Origin: Arctopsyche grandis
Lineage: Eukaryota; Arthropoda; Insecta; Trichoptera; Hydropsychidae
Direction: 5' to 3'
DNA: 64,000 bases
Assembly (NCBI RefSeq): GCF_051622035.1
Contig: NC_135358.1
Location: 16,340,501-16,404,500 of the forward strand
Positions 25,401 to 61,439 of this stretch are shown here, piece by piece (positions within the stretch are counted from its first letter, which is position 1; each line of letters begins with the position of its first letter). The notes under the pieces were generated by a model. It was not told where the DNA came from. It saw only the letters and a program-made list of their open reading frames with translations, and searched no databases. Position numbers and translations under genes: made by a program.

Positions 25401-28400
25401 GAATTTATTTTCAGTTTAGCAAATATCGTTTTTATAACAGGCGATGAGATGATCCAGTGTTCAATAGGAAACAGTCACCAAATCTATGACAATAAGATTG
25501 TACATATTATATATACACACATGCATATATGTAAATATGTTTGTATACTCCCTAGAAATCTACATACATATATGATTATATAATTAATCATCGATACATA
25601 TCAATTCGATGATTGATTTTGTCTAGATTGACAAATGGATTCCATGAACTTTTCATTTAACACTTACATACTTGTTGACATACAATTGACGCAAATTGAT
25701 TAAATTTTAAGTAGACACACTCGTACATACATAGTATAACAATAAAAGCTTTAATAATTTTATTTATTCATCATTGGTTTTACCATTGAGCGATATTTTT
25801 TATGGTTATTTTAGGCACAATTTTACTGTAATGAAATATCAAAGGTGAATATAATGTATAAATCATTTTCAAAATATTATATAATATGTCTATTGAATGG
25901 GTGTATACATATGTAGTATTTTGAAAAATTTGCTGATTGCACACATATTTGAATGATATTTCCTCTTTTGGTGGTTGCTCTTTTACCACAACATCTTTCA
26001 TTATTATATTTTAACATTTTCAGAAATGAAAATATTGATCATTTTAATACTAACATGTTGTAAATCTATCGATCCATTTATAGTATTATATTTTTTATCA
26101 CACCTCATATACATATGATACAAAAATCGAAACATAAATGAGTTTAATAAGGATTGGCTCCACCTTGACATTAAGTTATTAAACGGAGAATTACAACGTT
26201 ACTGTATAGGTATTTTGTAATTGGTAAACTAATTGAGCCATTTTCAGAATGAGTCCGATGAACCTAGAGATGATTAAACTCAACTCTCAGTGCAGTGGTG
26301 TAGTGCTAAATTTTGAGGTGCCGGTACGCTCGATTTTGCACAATTTTTTTTGCAAATTTTTTTTGTACAATTTTTACAATACATGCATTTTTACATAATT
26401 AATTTCGACTCTACTTAAATGACTCTAAGGTCGAAAACGCTACATGCCGGAAGGCTCTTCTTTGTCAGTACTTTAAAAGATGATTTAAAAGTATTGTTCG
26501 GTGAGAAGGTGGAAGCCCAACACTTTACCGGGAAAGGAAGCAAATGGAAAAAGGAAGTTAATTTAGAAGCTGGAATGGTATTAAAAATAATATAACGATA
26601 CTACAAATAAAAAAAAAAGTTAAAAACATACAATTCATTATTACTTAAATTTAACAAAGAATAGTGACAAACTCAGAAAACTATAATAACTTCCAGAGTT
26701 CATCTTCATTGACATCGTTTTTATTTACCAACATTCACATTTTTCACATATCTACCGAATGCTTTTTTTATACGCACCCATTACTCCTTAATTTCTTAAC
26801 TTCTCGTGACCATACAAAAAAAATCAGACCCTTTTTTTGCATTATGCAAGAAATCCTCGAAGCAATCTTCGAGTGATGAATGTATCCTTCAGTTCATGAC
26901 ACAAAGGCGTTTGTTTGTTAATTCATTTGAGAACTATGTACCTACCTACCTTCATGTATCGATAGTACAACTGAACATCCACCCTAGACAATGGTTTGAG
27001 CCGTCATAAACGAAAAAAAAGGTCCAGAGCCCATTTATTTCGTTAATGCGTCCATAAATGGGGACCAATATTTAAATATGCTAAAAACACATCTGGTGCC
27101 TCACACGTGGTATCCTTGAACCTGACAGTATTTTTATGCACGGCATCGCTCTTTTTCATCTAGTTTGGTTGAAAAATATATTTCAAAGGTGGTAAAACTT
27201 TTCGAAAAAAATAAAGTTTTATACTATTTTGATTTTTGAAATTTTTATGGCGGGTCGCGTACCGATGCCAATAAATAGTGGCGGGACGCCATACCGGCGC
27301 GTACCGGCTATTCTACAACCCTGACTCTAAGGCAAAACTGGTAAACGGACTACTAGTCATATGTAAACCAGTCACAGGACAACCGGTCGCGCTAGATCGG
27401 CTAGATCACGAGAAAACTGATTGACCGATTTTAGGGTGTGACCAGTTTTCTCGTGACCAATTTTAGGGTGTGACCAGTTTTTTCGTGACCAGTTTTAGTG
27501 TGACGGGTGATCACGTGTGACCGATCTAGAGCGACCGGTTGTCTTGTGACCGGTTCACATTTGACTAGTAATCACCGAACCGGCAAAACTATATGTGCCA
27601 GACACTATTTTCAGTGTATTTGCATATAATTTACATTCAAATTCAGATACCTGTTGGCATACTACTATTCAGTTTCAATTTATTTGCGACTATGCCTGAT
27701 ATCCGAAAGTTAATACGATGGTGTGAAAACGTTTTTCAGACAATTTTCTGCTAGCTAGCAGTGTTTACATATTAAATGGATATTGAGTATGAGGCGATAA
27801 TTGAGACGCGTCTTTACTTGTCGACGTTAATTCTCTTTCATGTAAATATTTAATTCTGAAAATAAATGCACATACATACGTATGTCTTATATAATATGTA
27901 CGGGCAATGTGTATGGGCAGTTTTCGAGTTGTGTGGCAAAGTCAACAGTTGACGACCTCTGATATTCGCATTTTGCGATTTCCCATTCAACATTTCAAAA
28001 CAATGGCTATTATCGGTGAATCGGAAAGAGTGTCACTCACAATGTCGCGTAATAACCGCACTCTTGAAAGTCATTTTTATTGATAAAAACATTGCAAATG
28101 TCTAGGCTGACAATAAATCTGTACTTGAGATATATTTTTTTACAACTGTGTCAGCGCTGGATCAAGATCTAGTCAACCTTGAATTTTCAAAGAAAGCTTT
28201 CGAGTAATTGATAATTTTTTTATCAACGCAATTTCATATTTATCAATTATTGTTTATTTTTATCACTTCGACAATCGTTTTAAAAAAAACTTTCCCTATC
28301 GAGAATTTTATATAATACAATATTATATATACATATGCATGTACTTAGATATCAATAAAAGTTTAAAAGATTTTCTACGTAATTTTGTAGAAAACACTTT

Positions 28401-31400
28401 ATTCATTAATTAATTTTAGATAAATATTTTATTTATAAAATAATTCAAGTAATAAATCGTTAAAAAATCTTGTTTTGCAAAAAAGTAGTACTATTTCTAT
28501 ACGAATACATATGTATATTATTGTATATATTTACATATATGTATATGTACATTATCATAAAAAGCAAAACAATGATGACTTTTGTATTAATTAAGTTGTA
28601 CTTTTGTAATTAATTATGTTTTATGAATATGTGGAAATTAAACATTCACGTACATACATATATGAGCACACAGCTCACTGGTTTAGTTAGAGAGGTCGAG
28701 GGGCTCAAGTCCCAACCGGAATCGAGTAATTATTCAAGATCTGGATGATTACTAAAGCCAGATCGACCGACTCCTGTTAGAGTTTGTCATTTTATCTAAC
28801 ATAACTGCAATAAAATCGGCATCCCCTTCCCCTCTCTTTGGTCGCAAATCCGAGTTTGTTGATTTGTAGAATGTGTTCAGTATTAATGTACAAGTTTGGC
28901 CATAGATGTCAATGTAGTAAAAATGAAATATATATATACAAAATAAAATAAGAAGTTTGTAGAAATTGATTTCATTTGTTTAAATTTATTCAGAATGGTG
29001 AAGAAATTGATAATATGTATATTTGAACAAACATTAAACATCCTTATTTCAGTTTTAGCTAGATTTAGAACCTAATAATATATGACGTCAACCTCACACA
29101 ATATTTGTAATACATATGTATGTATATCTAAACTATGAATCTAGAAGTGTCATCATAATTTGTACACGAGTACAAAGTCGATCGTTATCTTGTTGTATTT
29201 TATCCTATTTGACAGTGAAAACGGTCAATAAACTATTTATGTATGTATGTTTCACAAAAATAATTCGAATTTTTACAGTCACTTGTGATACATTGCATTT
29301 TCATAAATCAACACTGCAGTTAGTCAATTTTTTCAACGTGTTAACGGTGACTGCTAAAAATCTATTGGCAATTTACAGCACTGAAGCCGTGTAATTCACC
29401 CGATTATTCGATGAATTGCTGATAATTACAGTCATTGTTTGTAGACTATTTTAAAATTGGCATTTTTTGACGCTTATTTTTTTTTTCTTTTGACGACTAA
29501 GAAAAATCATGCTTGAGATCGATTCTCATACAAAGATCGTAAATGGCGCTACTATAGCGTGCATTTTACCATCACAATACACATGTATGTACCTACATAT
29601 GTACATATGTGTGTGTATATTTTGAGGAACATGTTGATTGCATTTGTCTGAAAATTATTGAAATGTTTATTTGTAGTGTTGACTATCCATTATTCGATAG
29701 TGAACTTTATTATACGTGTAATTGTTTATTACGTATCTAACTGTAGTAACTACATAGGCTAAATATGTTTTTAATATGCTAATATACATATGTTTGTACT
29801 ATACTTAAATTTTATGTGCTATTTATATAACTATGCAAATGGCTATGTATGTATTTGGACTAAAGCAATCCCTGACATAATATACATGCATTATACATGT
29901 ATAAATGAATTTAAAATGTTTGTCCACTATGCAATTCTATAGATACAATTTTCATCTTTGGATTATCAAATTTGGTATACCATCCCATAATATCCTAACT
30001 TAGACCATCGATGGGGTTATAGAAAGATATTTTTTTTTCTTTCATCCACCTAAGCAACGCCGCGAATAGATAAAAATGTTGGAAAGTCTGCTGTAAAGTT
30101 ATTATAAAAGCTAATTTTCGTATATCTAATGTCATACTACATAAAAAAATACTCTTTATTATACAACATGTATCTATAACACTGAGAAACAAAAAATACC
30201 TGAGCGGAAACTAATCAATATTTAGTTTGAGCCACTGAATTCGAATATAACATAAATTTTTTTTGGCTTACTCTTATTTAAGACATAATTTTTGGCTGTT
30301 GCAGTCTTTAATTTCAGTCTAGTATTGTTGTGCCAAAAGTGAGTATTTTAATCAATAATCAGATATTTTTCTGTTGATTGTCATTTTTTATTGTTTTAAA
30401 ATCTAGCGAATTATAAAAGTCAAAAATACACTGTGACACATGAGCTAATTTCGCAAATGTTTCACTTTACCACGTTTATATAAGGGTTGGCTTTCAATCT
30501 CAATATTTTATCTGAACGTACTAATTCGAGCGGTAAATGATTTTAAATTACAATATGAAGTTATAACATAAGGAATAAAATATAAAAGAGCCTTGTAAAA
30601 AGCTGGACGCATCGATGGCATCTTGGTATTTTCTTTGTGAAGTCGTTCTTGAGGGTCGAACGAATGTGAAAAGAAGGTCAAGGAGAAGGTCAGAGTGCAC
30701 ATGTACTTACATACAAAATTTGTCTAAAAAAGTTTGAAAAAGTATTGTGTGCATGAGTTGATGTGTTTATAATTTAAAGCCCTTAAGATTTCTTCGGATC
30801 GGTTTCGGGGAAGATTTAGCTTGAGTCAGTGAGCACATATGTATGTATGTACATATATGTATATAGGCACGTACAACTGTAATATATTGTACATACATAA
30901 AATGTATGTATGCATATATGTAAAATTTGCGTGGCTCTTGGGCCGATTCAAGGGCGCCGCGATTTGTGTCCCCGGCGTGGTTTTGTTATGATGCAAATTG
31001 AGTCTCTCAATATCGAAACGGTCATTTTCTTTAATTGAGAGCATCGCGAATTACGTGGACAAACAGACACCTGCGGCTCTAATGGCCAACGCTCGGTTTC
31101 AGAAAAATTGACAGTCACGAGACTGAAAAAAATCTGAACACAAGCGGATGTAGCTGGTTGATGATCGTGACATCATCCCGTCTCGTCGTCTTTTCGACGA
31201 GTGATGGTACTAATCTAAAGGGCTGTTTGATCGAAAAAAGAGTGTAGACTTTTTTCTTAATAATATATTACACGTACAATGGACCATATTTTTTTAATAA
31301 AGGACACATAAAGAATCGTTTTATAACTTGAAAAATGCTTTATAAGGTAGTAATATTTATTATAAAATAAATATTAGCATACAAAATTTAGAATTTTACA

Positions 31401-53470: not shown

Positions 53471-54382
53471 TATGAAACCAATCAAACGACACCTTGAAAA
53501 TATGCATTAAAATTACATTAGTAAGCCCATATAATTTTTCTAAATAAGATCAGTTTAATAAACAAAAGTAAACATTCAAGAAAATAGTTTCTTTTTGATC
53601 ATATGCAAAAAGTTCCTTATAGATTAAAGTTCCTTATACATTAATTTTTCCAGCAGCAATTGATATGGTTTAAATAATGTTTGGCTTATCATATGCGAAA
53701 CAGTTCCGAAAATTACCGATTGCTGATAATACAGTTGGAAGAAGAATTATATTGTTCCGTAAATTACATACATATGTAATCGCGAAAGGGTAATAGATGC
53801 TGTTCATTCGAATGGAATTCTCAATTAGATATATTTTTTCCTATTTAATGAAAAGGAAAAAAATGGGATAAAAAATCCATAGTACATATCGATTCAATGA
53901 GTACACTATTTTAAAAATTTATGATTATGTCAAGTAATTAAGGTGTTTATTTATCTTTCCCATATTTTTTTATGTACAATGTATATACTATACTAACACA
54001 TACAATTTAAAAACTTCAAAAAGTGTTTATTTAAATTGAATTCTCAACTGAAATTTGTTTTGGATGACTAATTATGATTTAACGATAATGATTGATTTTC
54101 AAACAGCGCATCTTATCATATGTCTGCGTGTGAAAGTCTTCTTGAGATATCAACACGTGTTAAAATATGAAAAGTTCGGTTGACGCTTTGTATAGTTGGA
54201 ATGCTTATTCATATCATACACTTCATTTATTAATGAAACGGATAACGAACCTATGGTATATTTTATAAATTAAGTACACATTTTTTATAACAAATTCATG
54301 CTACAAATTATAAATATTTCGATCGTGGAATAGTATGGAAGCTAATTCGACTCGATTTGCAAAAAAGGCGGGCATTGGTTTC

Positions 54383-54420
54383 TATATAAAGGCAGATCCC
54401 CCTCCCTGGATCAGCAGTAA
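54383..54420 (+). promoter_or_regulatory. TATA promoter of the microRNA-cluster transcript
   Basis: TATATAAA at 54383-54390 is followed 30 bp later by an initiator-like TCAGCA (54411-54416). Sequence downstream is unusually GC-rich for the area (AGTCTGGACCTGAAAGGGG) and ends in a splice donor GTGAGT at 54492. This is the strongest TATA/initiator arrangement on the plus strand of the window. Confidence 0.6.
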
Positions 54421-54681
54421 GAGTCTGGACCTGAAAGGGGTAGGGTCCCTTGGTGCTTCCTCTCCGGTGTAGTCTACACGAAATCGAGGCAGTGAGTACT
54501 TGTGCTGTTAGTGGAATTTTCTTTTAAAGTATATTAATATATTTTTTTTTTTCAGCTTCAATTGAATATCCATCTCATATCATTGCATTTAAGAAGTCAT
54601 AGGACAATGTACGGTATTAACAATTGTCTTTGTTATTTATAAGTCTTCACCAAATCTTCACGTGCTTGGTTCATATTAAAG

Positions 54682-54744
54682 TAAACGAGGAAGTGGCGCA
54701 TACATATTTTATTTATTGCAATATTATGCACCACTTTCTTGCTT
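54682..54744 (+). ncRNA. miRNA-like hairpin 1
   Basis: The 5' arm ACGAGGAAGTGGCGCATACA pairs with the 3' arm AATATTATGCACCACTTTCT (starts 54720) over about 22 positions with G-U pairs and one bulge. The loop is about 15 nt. The 3' arm is the conserved one across the cluster and the likely mature strand. Confidence 0.75.
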
Positions 54745-54810
54745 ATTTTTTTAATGATTATATCACAATCTTGCGGATACGGATCGTCGCGTCTCATTTC
54801 TTTTTAAATC

Positions 54811-54868
54811 AGCAGGGACGTGGTGCATATATGTTGTTTAAATTAATATTATGCACCTCTTCCTCGCA
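54811..54868 (+). ncRNA. miRNA-like hairpin 2
   Basis: The 5' arm GCAGGGACGTGGTGCATATA pairs with the 3' arm AATATTATGCACCTCTTCCT (starts 54845). The same first 12 nt as hairpin 1 are kept while the remainder varies, the pattern of a seed-conserving family. Confidence 0.75.
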
Positions 54869-54963
54869 GATTTTTAATGAAAACTCCATGGCTATTTTTT
54901 TGTGCTTTAAATTATTTCTTATTTTCAGTTGGGCAAATACTAACTTTGGACTTGCTATTGAAT

Positions 54964-55030
54964 TGGCGTGGAAGACATGTATATATATTGGTGTTATATT
55001 ATATAAATATTATGCACGTTTTCCACGGGG
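54964..55030 (+). ncRNA. miRNA-like hairpin 3
   Basis: The 5' arm GGCGTGGAAGACATGTATAT pairs with the 3' arm AATATTATGCACGTTTTCCA (starts 55006). The lower stem CGTGGAA/TTCCACG pairs well. An acceptor-like TTATTTTCAG ends at 54928. Confidence 0.75.
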
Positions 55031-55135
55031 ATTTTTTAGCAGAGGTCCAACAGATTGATTTTATTTTTTTGGTTATTTCATTTATTTTTCTTCAAACATA
55101 TATTTAATCCCTTCTTTTTTTCAGCGAGCTTTTAA

Positions 55136-55200
55136 ATTTACATAGAACATGTGCATTAATATTGCATTTGATAAAATATTATGCATGTATTCTTTGTAAA
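55136..55200 (+). ncRNA. miRNA-like hairpin 4
   Basis: The 5' arm TTTACATAGAACATGTGCAT pairs with the 3' arm AATATTATGCATGTATTCTT (starts 55175), closing with TTTACA/TGTAAA. This is the best-paired member, with a stem of about 26 bp. An acceptor-like TTTTTTTCAG ends at 55124. Confidence 0.8.
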
Positions 55201-55271
55201 TTTTTTAAGCTATATTCTCCAATCTGATTTAAAATTTTACGTTGATCTTCCGATTTCTTGTACCTTTTAGA

Positions 55272-55336
55272 TTTTCGAGAAACAGGTGCATATATATTGT
55301 GTTTGATTCAATATTATGCATCTATTTTTCGAGTAT
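55272..55336 (+). ncRNA. miRNA-like hairpin 5
   Basis: The 5' arm TTTCGAGAAACAGGTGCATA pairs with the 3' arm AATATTATGCATCTATTTTT (starts 55310). The lower stem TCGAGA/TTTTCGA pairs. An acceptor-like TACCTTTTAG ends two bases before the stem. Confidence 0.75.
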
Positions 55337-55756
55337 TTTTAAGTGTAAATTCTCCCATTTACCATTTTTTTGTTCTCATAATTTTTATTATTTTTTTCCT
55401 TTCTTTTCTGTTATTTCTTTTCTTTTCTTTTCTGTTTAATTTAGGTACGGTTGTAAATTTGGAGAGTCGTTAGCTTCGTGAAAAGTTTATTTTATCGTGT
55501 GTATTCATTTGCAATCACGGTAGATATGACTTTTCTCGATGACTAATGTAACGAGCACCCCATTTTATTCTATTCTGAGTGTTCCAGTTTATTTTCCGAA
55601 AATGATTGGAGAAGGGGTGGATGAATATTGTTTTTCTAATATTATTCGCCTTTTCTTTAAGTGTTTTCTGAAACATTCACATTTTATATTTTGTGTTCAA
55701 TTTCATTCCATGTCAATTCAGAAGATCTCGTCCACGTAAAATTTGCATTGAAGACT

Positions 55757-55818
55757 AGGTGGAATGTCTAGTCTTAATATTGTACTTCAACAAATATTAT
55801 GACTGGTCAATCCATCCA
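55757..55818 (+). ncRNA. miRNA-like hairpin 6
   Basis: The 5' arm AGGTGGAATGTCTAGTCTTA pairs with the 3' arm AATATTATGACTGGTCAATC (starts 55793). It keeps AATATTATG but has A instead of C at the next position and a different body. It lies 0.42 kb after hairpin 5, a larger gap than within the first five. Confidence 0.7.
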
Positions 55819-55913
55819 AGTTTACGATGCTACCGCCGACACCGCAAGCGTCAATCTTATCCACGTTCTTTGTAATATGTATTTCATTGCTATTTCAGGC
55901 CGACTGTTACATT

Positions 55914-55993
55914 GGAGTACTGGCGGAGGTGGTTTTAATAAATTACATATTTGTTTACTTGTATTTATTAGATCACTTCTGTCAGTACTACTG
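55914..55993 (+). ncRNA. miRNA-like hairpin 7 (different sequence)
   Basis: The long stem GGAGTACTGGCGGAGGTGGT / ATCACTTCTGTCAGTACTAC has about 28 paired positions with several G-U pairs, extending through TTTTAATAAAT / ATTTATTAGA. It does not share the AATATTATG start, so it is either an unrelated neighbour or a strongly diverged member. The mature arm is unclear. Confidence 0.65.
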
Positions 55994-56100
55994 TGATACA
56001 CATTCAACATAATTGGACCATTGCGCAATTCTATATATGTATGTACTTTTAACATTTCAGAAGAGGCGCTCAACAATTCCACCAATATCCGAAAGCTCTG

Positions 56101-56178
56101 AGTGCTTTAAATCGGGGCTTTGTGATAATATTGTGTTTATAAGTCAATATTGCACATAGTCTGGATTAAAAGCATTTT
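56101..56178 (+). ncRNA. miRNA-like hairpin 8 with a miR-92-type seed
   Basis: The stem runs from GTGCTTTAAATCGGGGCTTT (5') to AATATTGCACATAGTCTGGA and TTAAAAGCAT (3', starts 56146), about 30 paired positions. If the mature strand begins UAUUGCAC, its seed AUUGCAC is that of the miR-25/92/310 group. An acceptor-like AACATTTCAG ends at 56060. Confidence 0.7.
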
Positions 56179-56479
56179 TGAATTAACACCATTGTAATTG
56201 ACGATTTTGTGAATTTATTGTCATTGTGTTGTAATGCATTTTGAATTTCAAGCCGGGGGGTAGCACATGTGTAGGACAGCCAATAGCGATCGAGTTTTAC
56301 CGAAGAGGGCGGAGTCTCCTTTTTGATTGGCCAACGGCAGTGTGGGGGCAGAGCTTCATTGCGCAAATTTTGGCAGACGAAGAATACCAAATTATAACCC
56401 TCGAAAATGATTATTACTTGCAATATGTATTGTCAATTATTTCATATTCCTATGTATTACAAATGTTTGAAATAAATAC

Positions 56480-57183
56480 AATTTTTTTAAAACTTTTTTA
56501 TATTACTTTATTGCATCAACATTCCATACACACCTACCCACACATCAAATAACTATCTGCATTGATGCTTTGATTTCTACACAAGGTGACGTACGGCGAA
56601 ACCTCTAGAAAGTTCTACACACATGTAGTTGTATTTACTTCAAATATTAACTACATTGATGCTTTAATTGCGCACAGTTAATTTTTGCATATTGTTTGCT
56701 GTGGAATCGTGACTAAATGAACTTGCGAGTCTTAAATAAGCAGCTTGTTAAAACAAAATCAAGCGACTCCTATTCAGTTATCGCATTTTTATCACTTCGT
56801 TGATGTATGTGAATTTATAATGAACGCATGGCTCATGTTTGCGACATGAGTGATTAATTAATACCGAATGTTTGCAGATCTGAGACGCATACATATTTTT
56901 TTTGATTACTGAAATTAGAGAGGAGACTTACAAATGTTACACCCTCAGATCCTAAATAGTTATACGAGAATGCACTCGAATTGATCCTGACAATTTTAAG
57001 TTTAAAATAAGGAGGTTTGTAAAAATGTGTGGGTTATTAAAGCATGTTGAGCTAGCAAGTTTGTTATGGAAGGTGCAAACGAATTTAAAACTCATGATAA
57101 ATTAACTTTGATCAGGTTTTGTTCTGATGTATAAACAATGGTTGATCAATTTTGTGTAAAAAGGCTGCCCTGTCTAATACTTA
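56480..57183. other. Spacer between miRNA cluster and membrane-protein gene
   Basis: AT-rich, no gene seen. It would be intronic for the membrane-protein gene if its tail exon lies further down. Confidence 0.4.
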
Positions 57184-57184
57184 C

Positions 57185-57195
57185 GTTTTATATAT
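57185..57195 (-). other. Candidate 11-nt microexon of the membrane-protein gene
   Basis: On the minus strand AATATGACAG|ATATATAAAAC|GTAAGT has both sites close to consensus. Read in phase after the helix it gives I-Y-K plus two bases, placing a basic residue right at the membrane exit. It lacks a partner exon in matching phase. Confidence 0.3.
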
Positions 57196-57283
57196 CTGTC
57201 ATATTGGTAAAATATTTAAAAAAAACTATTGCATTAAATTGATTGCAATAGGTAAGTATGAAAATCAGATGATAAAAACTCAC

Positions 57284-60200
57284 CAGTACGCCGACAAGCA
57301 GTAAAAGAGCTACGACGCCGATGACGCTGATCGTAATTGCAGCTATAGCTCCCGATCCATCCATAGATTCATCGAATTTGTCACTGTTCATATATGATGG
57401 AGTTGTTTCACCTGCAAAGCCTTCTACAGAGTCTGGAGCTAATTCTGAAAGATTTGGTTTGATGACTTCAATATTTGATCCGGATGTGGAAGTTGATGTG
57501 GGTATTCGGCTCTGATTGGGTTTCAATACAGAGCCATCGGCTATGCTATAATTAATGAAATCATTATTGCCGTTGTCGTGATCTGCTGTAGATTCAGTTT
57601 TGTTTAAGATGCTCGTTGGTATTTCATTGCTGTCTAATTGTTTTATATCAACTGTCACATCGGGTGAATCTATCCATTCTTCTAAATTGTCATTTTGGTC
57701 GGGGGTGCTAAACTTATCCTCATCATCTGAATTAGTTTTTTTGATCTCTTGTGAATCGAAGTTTTCTTCAGATCCGATTTGGGTGGTAGTAGAAATATGC
57801 GATTTTGTTGTAGCAGCTGTAACTTTAGTTGGAGCAATTGTTTGGACGGTGGTTTGTTCCGATGTGATGTCCGACGTGTGTTCAAATGTTAATTGTTCAG
57901 TTTCTAACTGTCGCAATGTAGTTGAAGATGGAGAAGTGATTTCGACTTTTATATTTGGATTGTAGTAAACTGTTGATGCCGTTTGTATATCTGATATGTT
58001 TTTCATGTCTGTAGTGAACATATAAACTGAGTTTGAATCTTCTGTAGTTGATAAATCAGGAAAATCCAAATCCACATCATCTAAGTTTTTACTTTCAATT
58101 TCATAAGTTGAAGATTCGGTAGTAAGTGTAGTTTCACTGGCAAAGTTAGTTGTATCGGAAATCGGTGTTGTAGTTGTAGATATTTTATAATTCTCAGCAT
58201 CTATATCCAATAAACCAGTGGTTGGTAAATTAACAGTCATACTGGCATCTGTTGTAGTAATTGCTTTGTAAACGCTCTCAATTTCTGCTTCTACATGACT
58301 ATTAACCGTTGATACATCATCTAAGAACTCAGTAGTCACTTCAGTAGTTGTTTTAGTTTCATAGTAATTTTTATTATCAGTTTCAATTTCTGAAGTTGTT
58401 GATTTTATGAGAGATTTTTCATTGAAATAAGTAGTCTCAAAGTCATTATCTGAGATAGTTGTTGTGTTTTCATCTATTTTACTTGATATAGTGCTAAATT
58501 CAAGTTTATTTGATTTGACAGTGGTTATAATTGGAATGTTATTTTTTATATTATTTACAGACACAGTTGTGGATATAATATCATCACTTTCTTCTTCTGT
58601 AGGATTATTAAAATCTTCCGAAGTGAAATCTGGTGTAGAAAAATCAGATCCTTGTGATTCATATATTGGTGTTGTTACTGTACTAGGAAATTTAGTAATG
58701 GATTCAAAGTATTCGTTGTCTTCAAACGTTTCAGGGACTTTATTTTGTTTTATCTGATTCAATTCTGGATTTTTGGAATTTGGTAATGTGACTGCAGCAT
58801 AGTCAAATTTACTTGCACTTGTAAGTTCTTCATGAGTATGTTTATTTTCAACAGAAACTTTGGTTGGTGCTACATCACTTGTTCTGTTGATTATGCTTTT
58901 AGATGTGAAATTTGCCAATGCATTATACATTTGTTGCGGTTCTTGGGCACTTGTTTTGCTATTTACAGTATCTGAAATGCAAAAAAATAATATGTTAATG
59001 TAACATTAATTTATTTAAGAAATTAAATAATCATTAAGATTTTCAAGAAAATTTATAGTACATTGACAAGCAAATTGCTTTACTAAAATTTTAAAATAAA
59101 GTTGATTTAGTTGTCTTTGATTCTATGCACATACATACATATTTATGTTTGTAATTCTATAGTTTGTGGATTCAAAAGCGAGAGGAGTTCACTTACCTGT
59201 GATTTTATCTAGTTTTTGTAGGTCATCTTCAGCTTTTATAGTAACGTCCTCTCGTGGAATTGTTGTATCTTGTGACATGTTTTGTCTTTTGCTTCCGGGA
59301 GGATTTTTCATTGAAATCAATGCCCAAGCAGTGGCAGTAGGAGGAATACTAAATTGGAATTCTGTATCATCTTTTTCTACATTTGTTGAATTGGTTGTAT
59401 TTCCCTCATAATACTTAAGCGAACCACGTTTACGTAGGAATGGAATTGAATTTTCTGCATTCGATCGTGTATGATCGGCCATGCGGGTTGGACTAATATC
59501 TGCTTGATATACGGGATCTAATTTTGAAGATGTGGTTGTAAATGTATCATTTAAATTCGAGGTTCTTCTTCTTGGGAAAGGAAATAGTTTAACGAGTTGA
59601 GGCGACTTCGTTGTTGGAAATTTTTCTGTTGTAATTGACGTACTATTGGCTTCTATTTTATTTTTCAATGAAATTCTGATTCTTGGACGTGGAGTGGAAT
59701 GAATTCTCATGCGTATCGCTAATAATTCTTTTCGAGTTTCATTGGTTTTATAATGTTCAATACGTTTTGTTGTGTTTGGTTCCTTTTTCTGAATTTTATC
59801 TGAGCTTATAACTTCATTTATAATTGAAGATGATGTGGTAATATCACTTTTGTCTTCTTCAGGAATTATTTTGATTGTCGAGGAACTTTGGTCATATGTT
59901 TCTGTAGATAACATAGATGTTTCATAAAATATTTTAGTACCATTCGCATCCATATAATCGCTATGCTTAGACATTGGATTTTCTGAATCTGTTAAAATGA
60001 TTTCTTTGGTATTTTTATATATAATTTTGGTGTTATTGTCATTCACTGCTTCAGAAATAAGTTTGTCGAAATTTATGGAATCAGAGTCACTGGTAAGTAA
60101 TTTTTCTGTTGAGACTTTTTCATTTTCATCATTAGTATATTCAATGTCAGCTAAATTTTCTTTAATACTATCAGATACTTCTTTGAACCTTTGATCAAAT

Positions 60201-61439
60201 AGATCAGTTTGAGGTGTAGTCAGAGCTCCATTATCCACTTGATTGTATCTGTTAGGATATGGTGCAGATCCTACACTTACAAAATAATCAGATACATTAT
60301 CTGGTACAATAAAATGTTCAACTTCTGGTGATATTGATTGAGAATATACATTGTTTATATCATGAAACTCTGAAGAGGTGTATTTGTCAATATTAAATGT
60401 TAAATCCAAAGATTTGCCACTTTCGTTTCTATTAACTAATTTATTACTTTCTGTTACATTTATATGAGGCATTTCAGTAGTATTAGGTATAACATTAGGT
60501 CTAGAAGAAGTATTTGTTTCATTTTTTCTAAAATGAGATTTGTAATCAGGCAAATACAAGTTTTTTGTTTTGGATGGCAATTTGTTTGGCTCCTGTTTTT
60601 CGGACACTTCATTTTTGCTATTTGTTGCATTTCTTTTCAAATATGGATTTTTAGGTTTAAATGGAGGCCTAGTTGCAAAGTACTTGACAGATCCTCTAAA
60701 ATTAATTTTGTTTCCATAACTGATTGTTGTTTCAGTACTATTTCCAGTTGAATTAGAGGTGATCTGGGGATTCTGGTTCACTGTCATGTTTCTTCTTTGG
60801 TACAGCCATGATTTATTTCTAGGATGGAACAATGTGTTATTTCTATCTTTGGACGACAAGGTGGTGGATTCTATAGATGAGTTGTCGGTCACATTGTTAT
60901 TAGATTGAGAACTACAGCATTCAAAGTACACAAGAGCCAAGAGAAGACATAGTCCTAAAACATACAATATGCAATATATATGTGTTTTCTTTTAAAAATA
61001 TAATACTAAAGGAGCATATGTATATATTTAGTCAGTAATTTTGCTTGATTTGGGCATTCAATTGATTGTCGATATGTTAAATTATCAATCAACGACTGCT
61101 GTATATTATAAACAAAGAGTTTCCTGGCCGTTCATTAATATTTATTCAGTAGTGCCCCTCTCTGCTCTTAAAAGCAAAGAAAAATGTTTCAAAAAAATAA
61201 TAGAAAAACAGTAAAATCAATCCAAGACATTTGTGATACGACAAAAATCTGTATTTTATTCATTTAAAGAAATTCACATAACCACTTCATAAATATTATT
61301 GAATTTTAGGTGTGCAACTATAACAGTACACTTTTACTACTGGATTTTTGCACCAGTTACTGACCATTTAATTTTTTGCAATTATTAAATAAGGTTTTAT
61401 TAATGCAATACCTATATTAATTCTCACGGGTGACTCCAT
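57284..61439 (-). CDS. Mucin-like single-pass membrane protein, 3' end unresolved
   Basis: Three coding exons: 61439-61412, 60954-59197, 58971-57284. They are in phase and encode 1158 aa, ending at an in-frame donor (CTG|GTGAGT at 57284). A signal peptide is made across the first junction: MESPVRINI + GLCLLLALVYFECCSS. The extracellular part is Ser/Thr/Asn-rich with many N-glycosylation sites (NVTDNSS, NSTGNSTE, NMTV) and long Thr-rich stretches suited to O-glycosylation. There is little Cys and no folded domain that I recognise. One membrane helix (about 1135-1158) reads AIAAITISVIGVVALLLLVGVL. The cytoplasmic tail must come from further exons; an 11-nt candidate (57195-57185) would add Ile-Tyr-Lys. 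Features are those of a cell-surface sialomucin. The function is unknown. The two large exons are open over 1.7 kb each. Confidence 0.8.

Follow-up and report, generated by a model that had tools for sequence, protein, structure and literature searches.

Eight hairpins stand in a row on the + strand of contig C4, at 54.68–56.18 kb of the window (the whole 64-kb stretch of DNA that was analysed), and most probably constitute a polycistronic microRNA cluster that grew out of the tandem duplication of a mir-92 gene. The last hairpin (H8) would have kept the miR-92 seed, while the others would descend from a copy with an AU insertion. At the level of sequence, family models establish that H1–H8 are kin and several members are likewise tied to mir-92. 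A further proposal, to which we give about even credence, is that the two-base insertion in the seed changed the targets, that it was tolerated at once through AU repeats in the opposite arm and was followed by multiplication to at least five copies, and that the seed of miR-2763 was reached independently in this way, being perhaps favoured repeatedly in insects.

A row of related hairpins

The sequence-only reading of this DNA had described eight tandem hairpins on one strand, and all eight were found where it had placed them, on the + strand. Each is one stem-loop with 27–33 base pairs, an MFE of -21.2 to -31.5 kcal/mol and a fold z of -4.2 to -7.1, more stable than 500 of 500 dinucleotide shuffles. 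Annotation of microRNAs looks for a single hairpin of about 60–90 nt that is stabler than its shuffles and carries its product on a stem arm, and the eight agree with this description, the product being a predicted one. The features of the locus are listed below, with the number of shuffles as stable as the hairpin.

54383..54390, + strand: TATATAAA, putative core promoter for the primary transcript, judged by eye
54412..54491, + strand: possible first exon, ending at a donor-like GTRAGT at 54492 (by eye, putative)
54677..54749, + strand: H1 hairpin, candidate 3p from about 54720 (AAUAUUAUGCACCACUUUCUUGC); fold z -6.7, 0/500 shuffles; member by the family models
54804..54874, + strand: H2 hairpin, candidate 3p from about 54845; z -5.3, 0/500
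54958..55035, + strand: H3 hairpin, candidate 3p from about 55006; z -5.2, 0/500
55132..55204, + strand: H4 hairpin, candidate 3p from about 55175; z -4.2, 0/500
55267..55339, + strand: H5 hairpin, candidate 3p from about 55310; z -7.1, 0/500
55466..55549, + strand: X1, extra hairpin missing from the earlier reading; z -6.5, 0/500 (- strand z -2.0)
55598..55667, + strand: H6 hairpin, candidate 3p AAUAUUAUUCGCC from about 55638; z -6.8, 0/500
55750..55822, + strand: H7 hairpin, candidate 3p AAUAUUAUGACUGG from about 55793; z -5.0, 0/500
55905..55995, + strand: X2, extra hairpin missing from the earlier reading; z -7.3, 0/500
56102..56175, + strand: H8 hairpin of mir-92/mir-310 type, carrying the miR-92 seed in its candidate 3p AAUAUUGCACAUAGUCUGG (from about 56146); RF04249 47.7 bits
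56471..56476, + strand: AATAAA, possible poly(A) signal 3' of the cluster (pattern listing)

Together, TATATAAA at 54383, GTRAGT at 54492 and AATAAA at 56471 would fit a primary transcript of 2.1 kb, short motifs of this kind being weak. Within 54200–56700, GTRAGT occurs at 54492 only, and there are five more TATA-like matches besides TATATAAA. The AATAAA at 56471 is a weak signal because the + strand of the window holds 144 of them, another one at 55937.

In a sliding scan, the 1.55 kb of 54651–56200 yielded 10 pre-miRNA-like hairpins, whereas 200 shuffles of this stretch averaged 0.32 and never had more than 2. Window-wide, there are 63 such hairpins on the + and 52 on the - strand (53 and 50 outside the cluster), and two shuffles of the whole window gave 18 per strand. 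Hairpins as such are no rarity there; it is density and kinship that distinguish the cluster. X1 and X2 were matched by neither family model (H1–H5 or H1–H7) and are possible additional microRNAs.

As had been noticed from the letters, AATATTATG opens the 3' arm in six hairpins (at 54720, 54845, 55006, 55175, 55310 and 55793) and AATATTATGCA in five, and the positions bear this out; H8 (AATATTGCAC) and H6 (AATATTATTCG) start differently. All five copies of the 11-mer AATATTATGCA in the window are inside the cluster (0.35 expected), whereas the 9-mer AATATTATG is weaker evidence, with 10 copies in the window, four of them elsewhere, against 4.26 expected. Among H1–H5, identity counted from the start of the 3p arm is 100% over the first 11 nt, 52% over nt 12–24, 57% at positions 25–40 and 37% at 41–60.

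The 5' arms had been said to co-vary so as to keep pairing, and a covariation test on H1–H7 upheld this. In the alignment, 87.0% of cells are paired, compared with 34.8–55.9% when the partner is slid, and two-sided changes occur in 9 of 23 pairs; the covariation score was reached by none of 500 shuffles and the count of two-sided pairs by four of 500. Stems kept by compensatory change are thereby found among H1–H7 as paralogues of one species. The statement that loops and spacers are unrelated did not survive, since loops and near flanks share motifs: ATATTG or ATGTTG stands on the 5' side of the loop in seven of eight hairpins (ATATTT in H1), and ATTTTT after the stem is common to H1–H5. H4 and H5, 74% identical over 95 nt, look like recent duplicates.

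Covariance models were built from H1–H5 or H1–H7 and run over a search space of 64 kb, the E-values of such home-made models being rough. The H1–H5 model matched H6 (E 3.2e-9), H8 (7.4e-4) and H7 (3.8e-3), the most diverged member, with the top match outside the cluster, members' reverse strands aside, at 0.094. The H1–H7 model matched H8 at 0.0074, and its top match outside the cluster had an E of 0.18. The proposal of a duplicating microRNA family is thus well supported by sequence evidence (folds, density, family models and covariation), and a microRNA cluster appears to be the best explanation of the hairpin row. In the genome examined, an assembly of 475.67 Mb in 189 contigs (about 476 Mb), the cluster is real, apparently single-copy and probably functional.

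Kinship with mir-92 and a probable change of seed

The miR-92 seed AUUGCAC was found on the 3p arm of H8 and of none of H1–H7. On the Rfam mir-310 model (RF04249), H8 scored 47.7 bits with a cut-off of 48 (E 5.2e-10 in 2 kb), and this genome's own mir-92, on contig C6, scored 43.0 bits, 5 bits below the same cut-off. Compared with canonical insect mir-92a/mir-92b, H8 has in common with the C6 mir-92 AATATTGCACAT and 12 of 13 bases of the loop segment ATATTTTGTTTAT, whereas the cluster lies at a separate locus on C4. Of the other members, H6 reached 19.8 bits (E 0.59) and the rest of H1–H7 were absent up to E 5; low scores on RF04249 mean little, because the reverse strand of H8 also reaches 24.2 bits. 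In the whole window no Rfam family was at or above its cut-off, and hits to mir-3817, mir-5728, mir-242_2 and mir-4536, with scores far below their cut-offs, were ignored.

The family models lead to the same mir-92. When stretches of 3 kb around it were searched, it came first with both models (E 0.0097 and 0.0039, two stretches), and the H1–H5 model ranks it top within 10 kb (E 0.0064). A reciprocal model from mir-92 and H8 matched, apart from H8 on either strand, H5 best of all (E 0.0023); next, at 0.012, came a chance hairpin at 30829, above H2 (0.051) and H3 (0.35), and H1, H6 and H7 were absent from its matches, so that this outcome is support for the kinship and not proof. A second mir-92 pattern match, on contig C10, folds as a short palindrome, had no match to any Rfam mir-92 model and was dropped; a hairpin-shaped pattern match on contig C1 was unmatched by the family model.

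Alignments were judged against 97 of the 115 hairpins scanned in the window, 18 being dropped (the cluster's own 10, 2 from the opposite strand of the cluster, 3 nearby and 3 of AT-repeat). Over the whole precursor, H2, H3 and H8 aligned to mir-92 better than 97 of 97 controls, and no more than one in 1000 pair-preserving shuffles equalled any of them (for H3, no control and one shuffle were as good). H5 beat 96 controls and 999 shuffles, H1 94 and 998, and H4, H6 and H7 were unremarkable, with 31, 30 and 23 of the 97 controls as good. Part of these scores is due to palindromic shape, because the reverse complement of H2 scored 105 with the best control at 96; X1 equalled H1 with 94 of 97 controls beaten, but was matched by 96 of 1000 pair shuffles. 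When aligned to the RF04249 consensus, H8, H6 and H2 beat all 97 controls and were equalled by 0, 3 and 0 of 300 pair shuffles.

The resemblance extends beyond the mature arm. When the 5' arm and loop of mir-92 were compared without it against 17,704 overlapping controls, none was as good as H2, which is the nearest member to this genome's mir-92 in that part, and 2 were as good as H5, 58 as H3, 74 as H1 and 152 as H8; for H4, H6 and H7 the numbers were 2131, 679 and 2426. Precursor likeness to mir-92/mir-310 outside the seed is therefore seen in some members only, and H4 and H7 are tied to the family through the family models alone. Our verdict is an ancestry in mir-92 rather than in miR-2763.

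Relative to mir-92, H1–H5 have two added bases inside the seed, AAUAUU-GCAC becoming AAUAUUAUGCA. When H2 is aligned to mir-92, the 5' arms need no gap (GGTGCATATATTTTGTTTA and GGTGCATATATGTTGTTTA), and the 3' arm of H2 is two bases longer within the seed. The 5' arm of this genome's mir-92 already contains GUGCAUAUAU, which offers GUGCAUA as a partner to UAUGCAC of the lengthened 3' arm. An insertion could therefore have left the hairpin intact with its opposite side unchanged. Inserting AU in silico at the site in mir-92 gave -27.5 vs -25.8 kcal/mol, tied as best with GU among 16 dinucleotides; when dinucleotides were inserted all along the seed arm, 13 of the 192 variants equalled or exceeded this stability. 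The inserted AU opens an internal loop above the seed and does not reproduce the fold of H2.

For the order of events, and for how the locus is transcribed and processed, where the 5' ends lie and what the products target, we infer the following course. A gene of the mir-92 family would have been duplicated in tandem, H8 being the copy that kept the miR-92 seed, and another copy that gained AU inside the 3p seed would be the ancestor of the remaining hairpins. This copy would have multiplied to at least five hairpins, of which five retained the first 11 nt of the 3p while their bodies and 5' arms drifted jointly. Drosha and Dicer would then cut the primary transcript into several 3p microRNAs whose common seed would be approximately UAUUAUG or AUUAUGC, according to where the end precisely lies, and these may repress targets other than those of miR-92. 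Since target choice depends on the part that holds the two extra bases, one would expect the copies to act on genes of a new set.

The likeness to miR-2763 and other explanations

The sequence-only reading had suggested the lepidopteran miR-2763 family, and with regard to seed and start the suggestion was right. The silkworm bmo-miR-2763 is given as AUAUUAUGCUCAUUUCUUUGGAU (PMC2824724), the 3p of H1–H5 reads AUAUUAUGCA with a seed equal to that of lepidopteran miR-2763, and the start AUAUUAUGC is present on the 3p arm in five of eight hairpins, H7 having AUAUUAUGA and H6 and H8 differing. As an ancestry it found no support. If the cluster were an expanded miR-2763 family, orthologous to the lepidopteran microRNA, with its mir-92-like neighbour arriving separately, this would account for nine identical nucleotides in the same position of the same arm, and also for the whole-precursor alignments: to the published Pararge mir-2763 precursor (PMC4640560), H5 beat 97 and H4 96 of 97 controls (equalled by 0 and 1 of 300 pair shuffles), and to the RF03225 consensus H3 and H4 each beat 96 of 97. 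A precedent for duplication is Cameraria ohridella, in which miR-2763 is described as duplicated, other Lepidoptera being single-copy (PMC4408404). The listing of tca-miR-2763-5p in a Tribolium microarray table (PMC10094939) means that the name is not confined to Lepidoptera.

Such orthology is nevertheless unlikely. The Rfam mir-2763 model (RF03225) matched H3 alone, with 17.8 bits and a cut-off of 50, and without the seed arm no member stood out: by 5' arm and loop the best was H5, with 143 of 17,704 controls as good (top 0.8%). As this part alone gave a null result, the likeness to mir-2763 comes mostly from the shared seed arm. Between the Pararge mir-2763 and this genome's mir-92 there is no resemblance (442 of 1000 pair shuffles were as good), whereas the cluster is similar to that mir-92. 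Canonical miR-2763 was absent from the genome when searched as one exact 22-nt mature pattern. A main-text search for the mature start returned, among insect papers, only those on Bombyx and Pararge by title.

The identity of the host also bears on this question. Contig C1 carries mitochondrial genes in a nuclear copy, where trnM-trnQ-trnI precede a frame taken by eye for ND2. Most Lepidoptera have the tRNA order M-I-Q. The order M-Q-I is given for a mason bee (PMC7671597), and the term also appears in papers on hydropsychid caddisflies and stick insects. The oxidase protein of the copy has, by eye, a hymenopteran look. By this order the host is apparently not a moth. With non-significant likeness outside the seed arm and a genome that does not look lepidopteran, convergence on the miR-2763 seed is more likely than orthology.

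A deeper connection is conceivable, with a comparable insertion into mir-92 giving rise to lepidopteran miR-2763 as well, and with the cluster as the intermediate; H5 resembles both mir-92 and mir-2763, and H8 adjoins hairpins with the 2763 seed. This is quite improbable, as the direct similarity between mir-92 and mir-2763 was not found in the Pararge comparison and miR-2763 has been dated to the common lepidopteran ancestor (PMC4640560).

Remains of dispersed inverted repeats, or a structured non-coding RNA uncut by Dicer, are a very improbable source of the row. Genome-wide, AATATTATGCA outnumbers its reversed control 2.6-fold, and among the first 100 places listed (contig C1) a spacing of exactly 329 bp recurs in three pairs, from which it follows that some repeat, probably dispersed, carries AATATTATGCA. 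However, no second copy of the cluster was found genome-wide (476 Mb), the only other match at E <= 0.001 being a T/C-rich stretch of 74 nt on contig C5. Around eight other AATATTATGCA sites the best of the family model was 18.9 bits (E 0.064), and the 3p arm is conserved in the fashion of a microRNA, with covarying stems.

That former mir-92-type genes have lost expression and decayed is hardly credible: the strong divergence of members beyond the first 11 nt would fit, but all ten stems are far stabler than shuffles, and two-sided compensatory changes are unexpected under decay. Chance hairpins were set aside on the shuffle tests and hairpin density, and an antisense origin on the lower MFE of the + strand for all ten hairpins and its stronger z in all but H4, for which differently placed 85-nt frames gave -23.3 on the - and -21.2 on the + strand.

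Known clusters and the surroundings

The closest parallel to a mir-92 origin is Drosophila mir-310~313, described as a fast-evolving mir-92 expansion with mostly 3p products that are thought to be maternally deposited (PMC3923130). Both are local tandem expansions of mir-92 with fast-evolving bodies, and the mir-310 model is the one on which H8 reached 47.7 bits. Here, in contrast, most members have the two-base seed insertion, there are more hairpins, and the neighbours are SNX27-, SLC12- and tyrosine phosphatase-like, with none of the named fly neighbours (qsm, Nnf1a, bl) among 10 selected frames scanned. The cluster resembles mir-310~313, which is a separate mir-92 expansion, with a rebuilt seed. 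With lepidopteran miR-2763 it has the 3p start in common, the 5' arm and loop being not significantly similar. Large multicopy microRNA clusters of the early embryo in Tribolium likewise combine many clustered hairpins with shared seeds, but excerpts describing them give different seeds and families and report no mir-92 kinship.

Seed change is usually attributed to arm switching, point changes or a shift of 5' ends. The last has been reported for mosquito microRNAs. Fast-evolving microRNA clusters are already known (PMC3923130). What probably sets this cluster apart from the mir-310~313 expansion is a seed rebuilt through a two-base insertion. An ancestor-like copy (H8) stands beside seed-changed copies, while the genome has a mir-92 at another place; one small insertion, accommodated by the opposite arm, would suffice to lead from the one kind of copy to the other. 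A single species, together with its relatives, thus offers a direct test of how new microRNA target sets arise. In main-text searches of open papers, no published account of the cluster was found, and pattern scans of viral contig and genome contig collections gave no match.

The window is animal DNA, with Pfam matches in 7 of 10 selected frames, among them the SNX27-, SLC12- and protein-tyrosine-phosphatase-like ones. Directly after H8, the stretch 56255–56370 has a higher G+C content and two opposed CCAAT boxes (56280 and 56326) and looks promoter-like by eye. On the - strand, 57191–60991 holds two long Ser/Thr-rich open frames of 605 and 600 aa without a Pfam match, the first (605 aa) with a likely membrane segment by eye. 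The mitochondrial copy on contig C1 (36080001–36090000) is long, with open frames resembling COX1, COX2, ATP6 and COX3, and includes an inverted duplication of trnY-trnC-trnW-ND2-trnI-trnQ-trnM; an assembly artefact could also account for it. Elsewhere in the window, 27422–27504 is a short repeat in tandem with TTTTAGGGTGTGACCAG, and 2511–2806 is made of tandem repeats of 53 bp.
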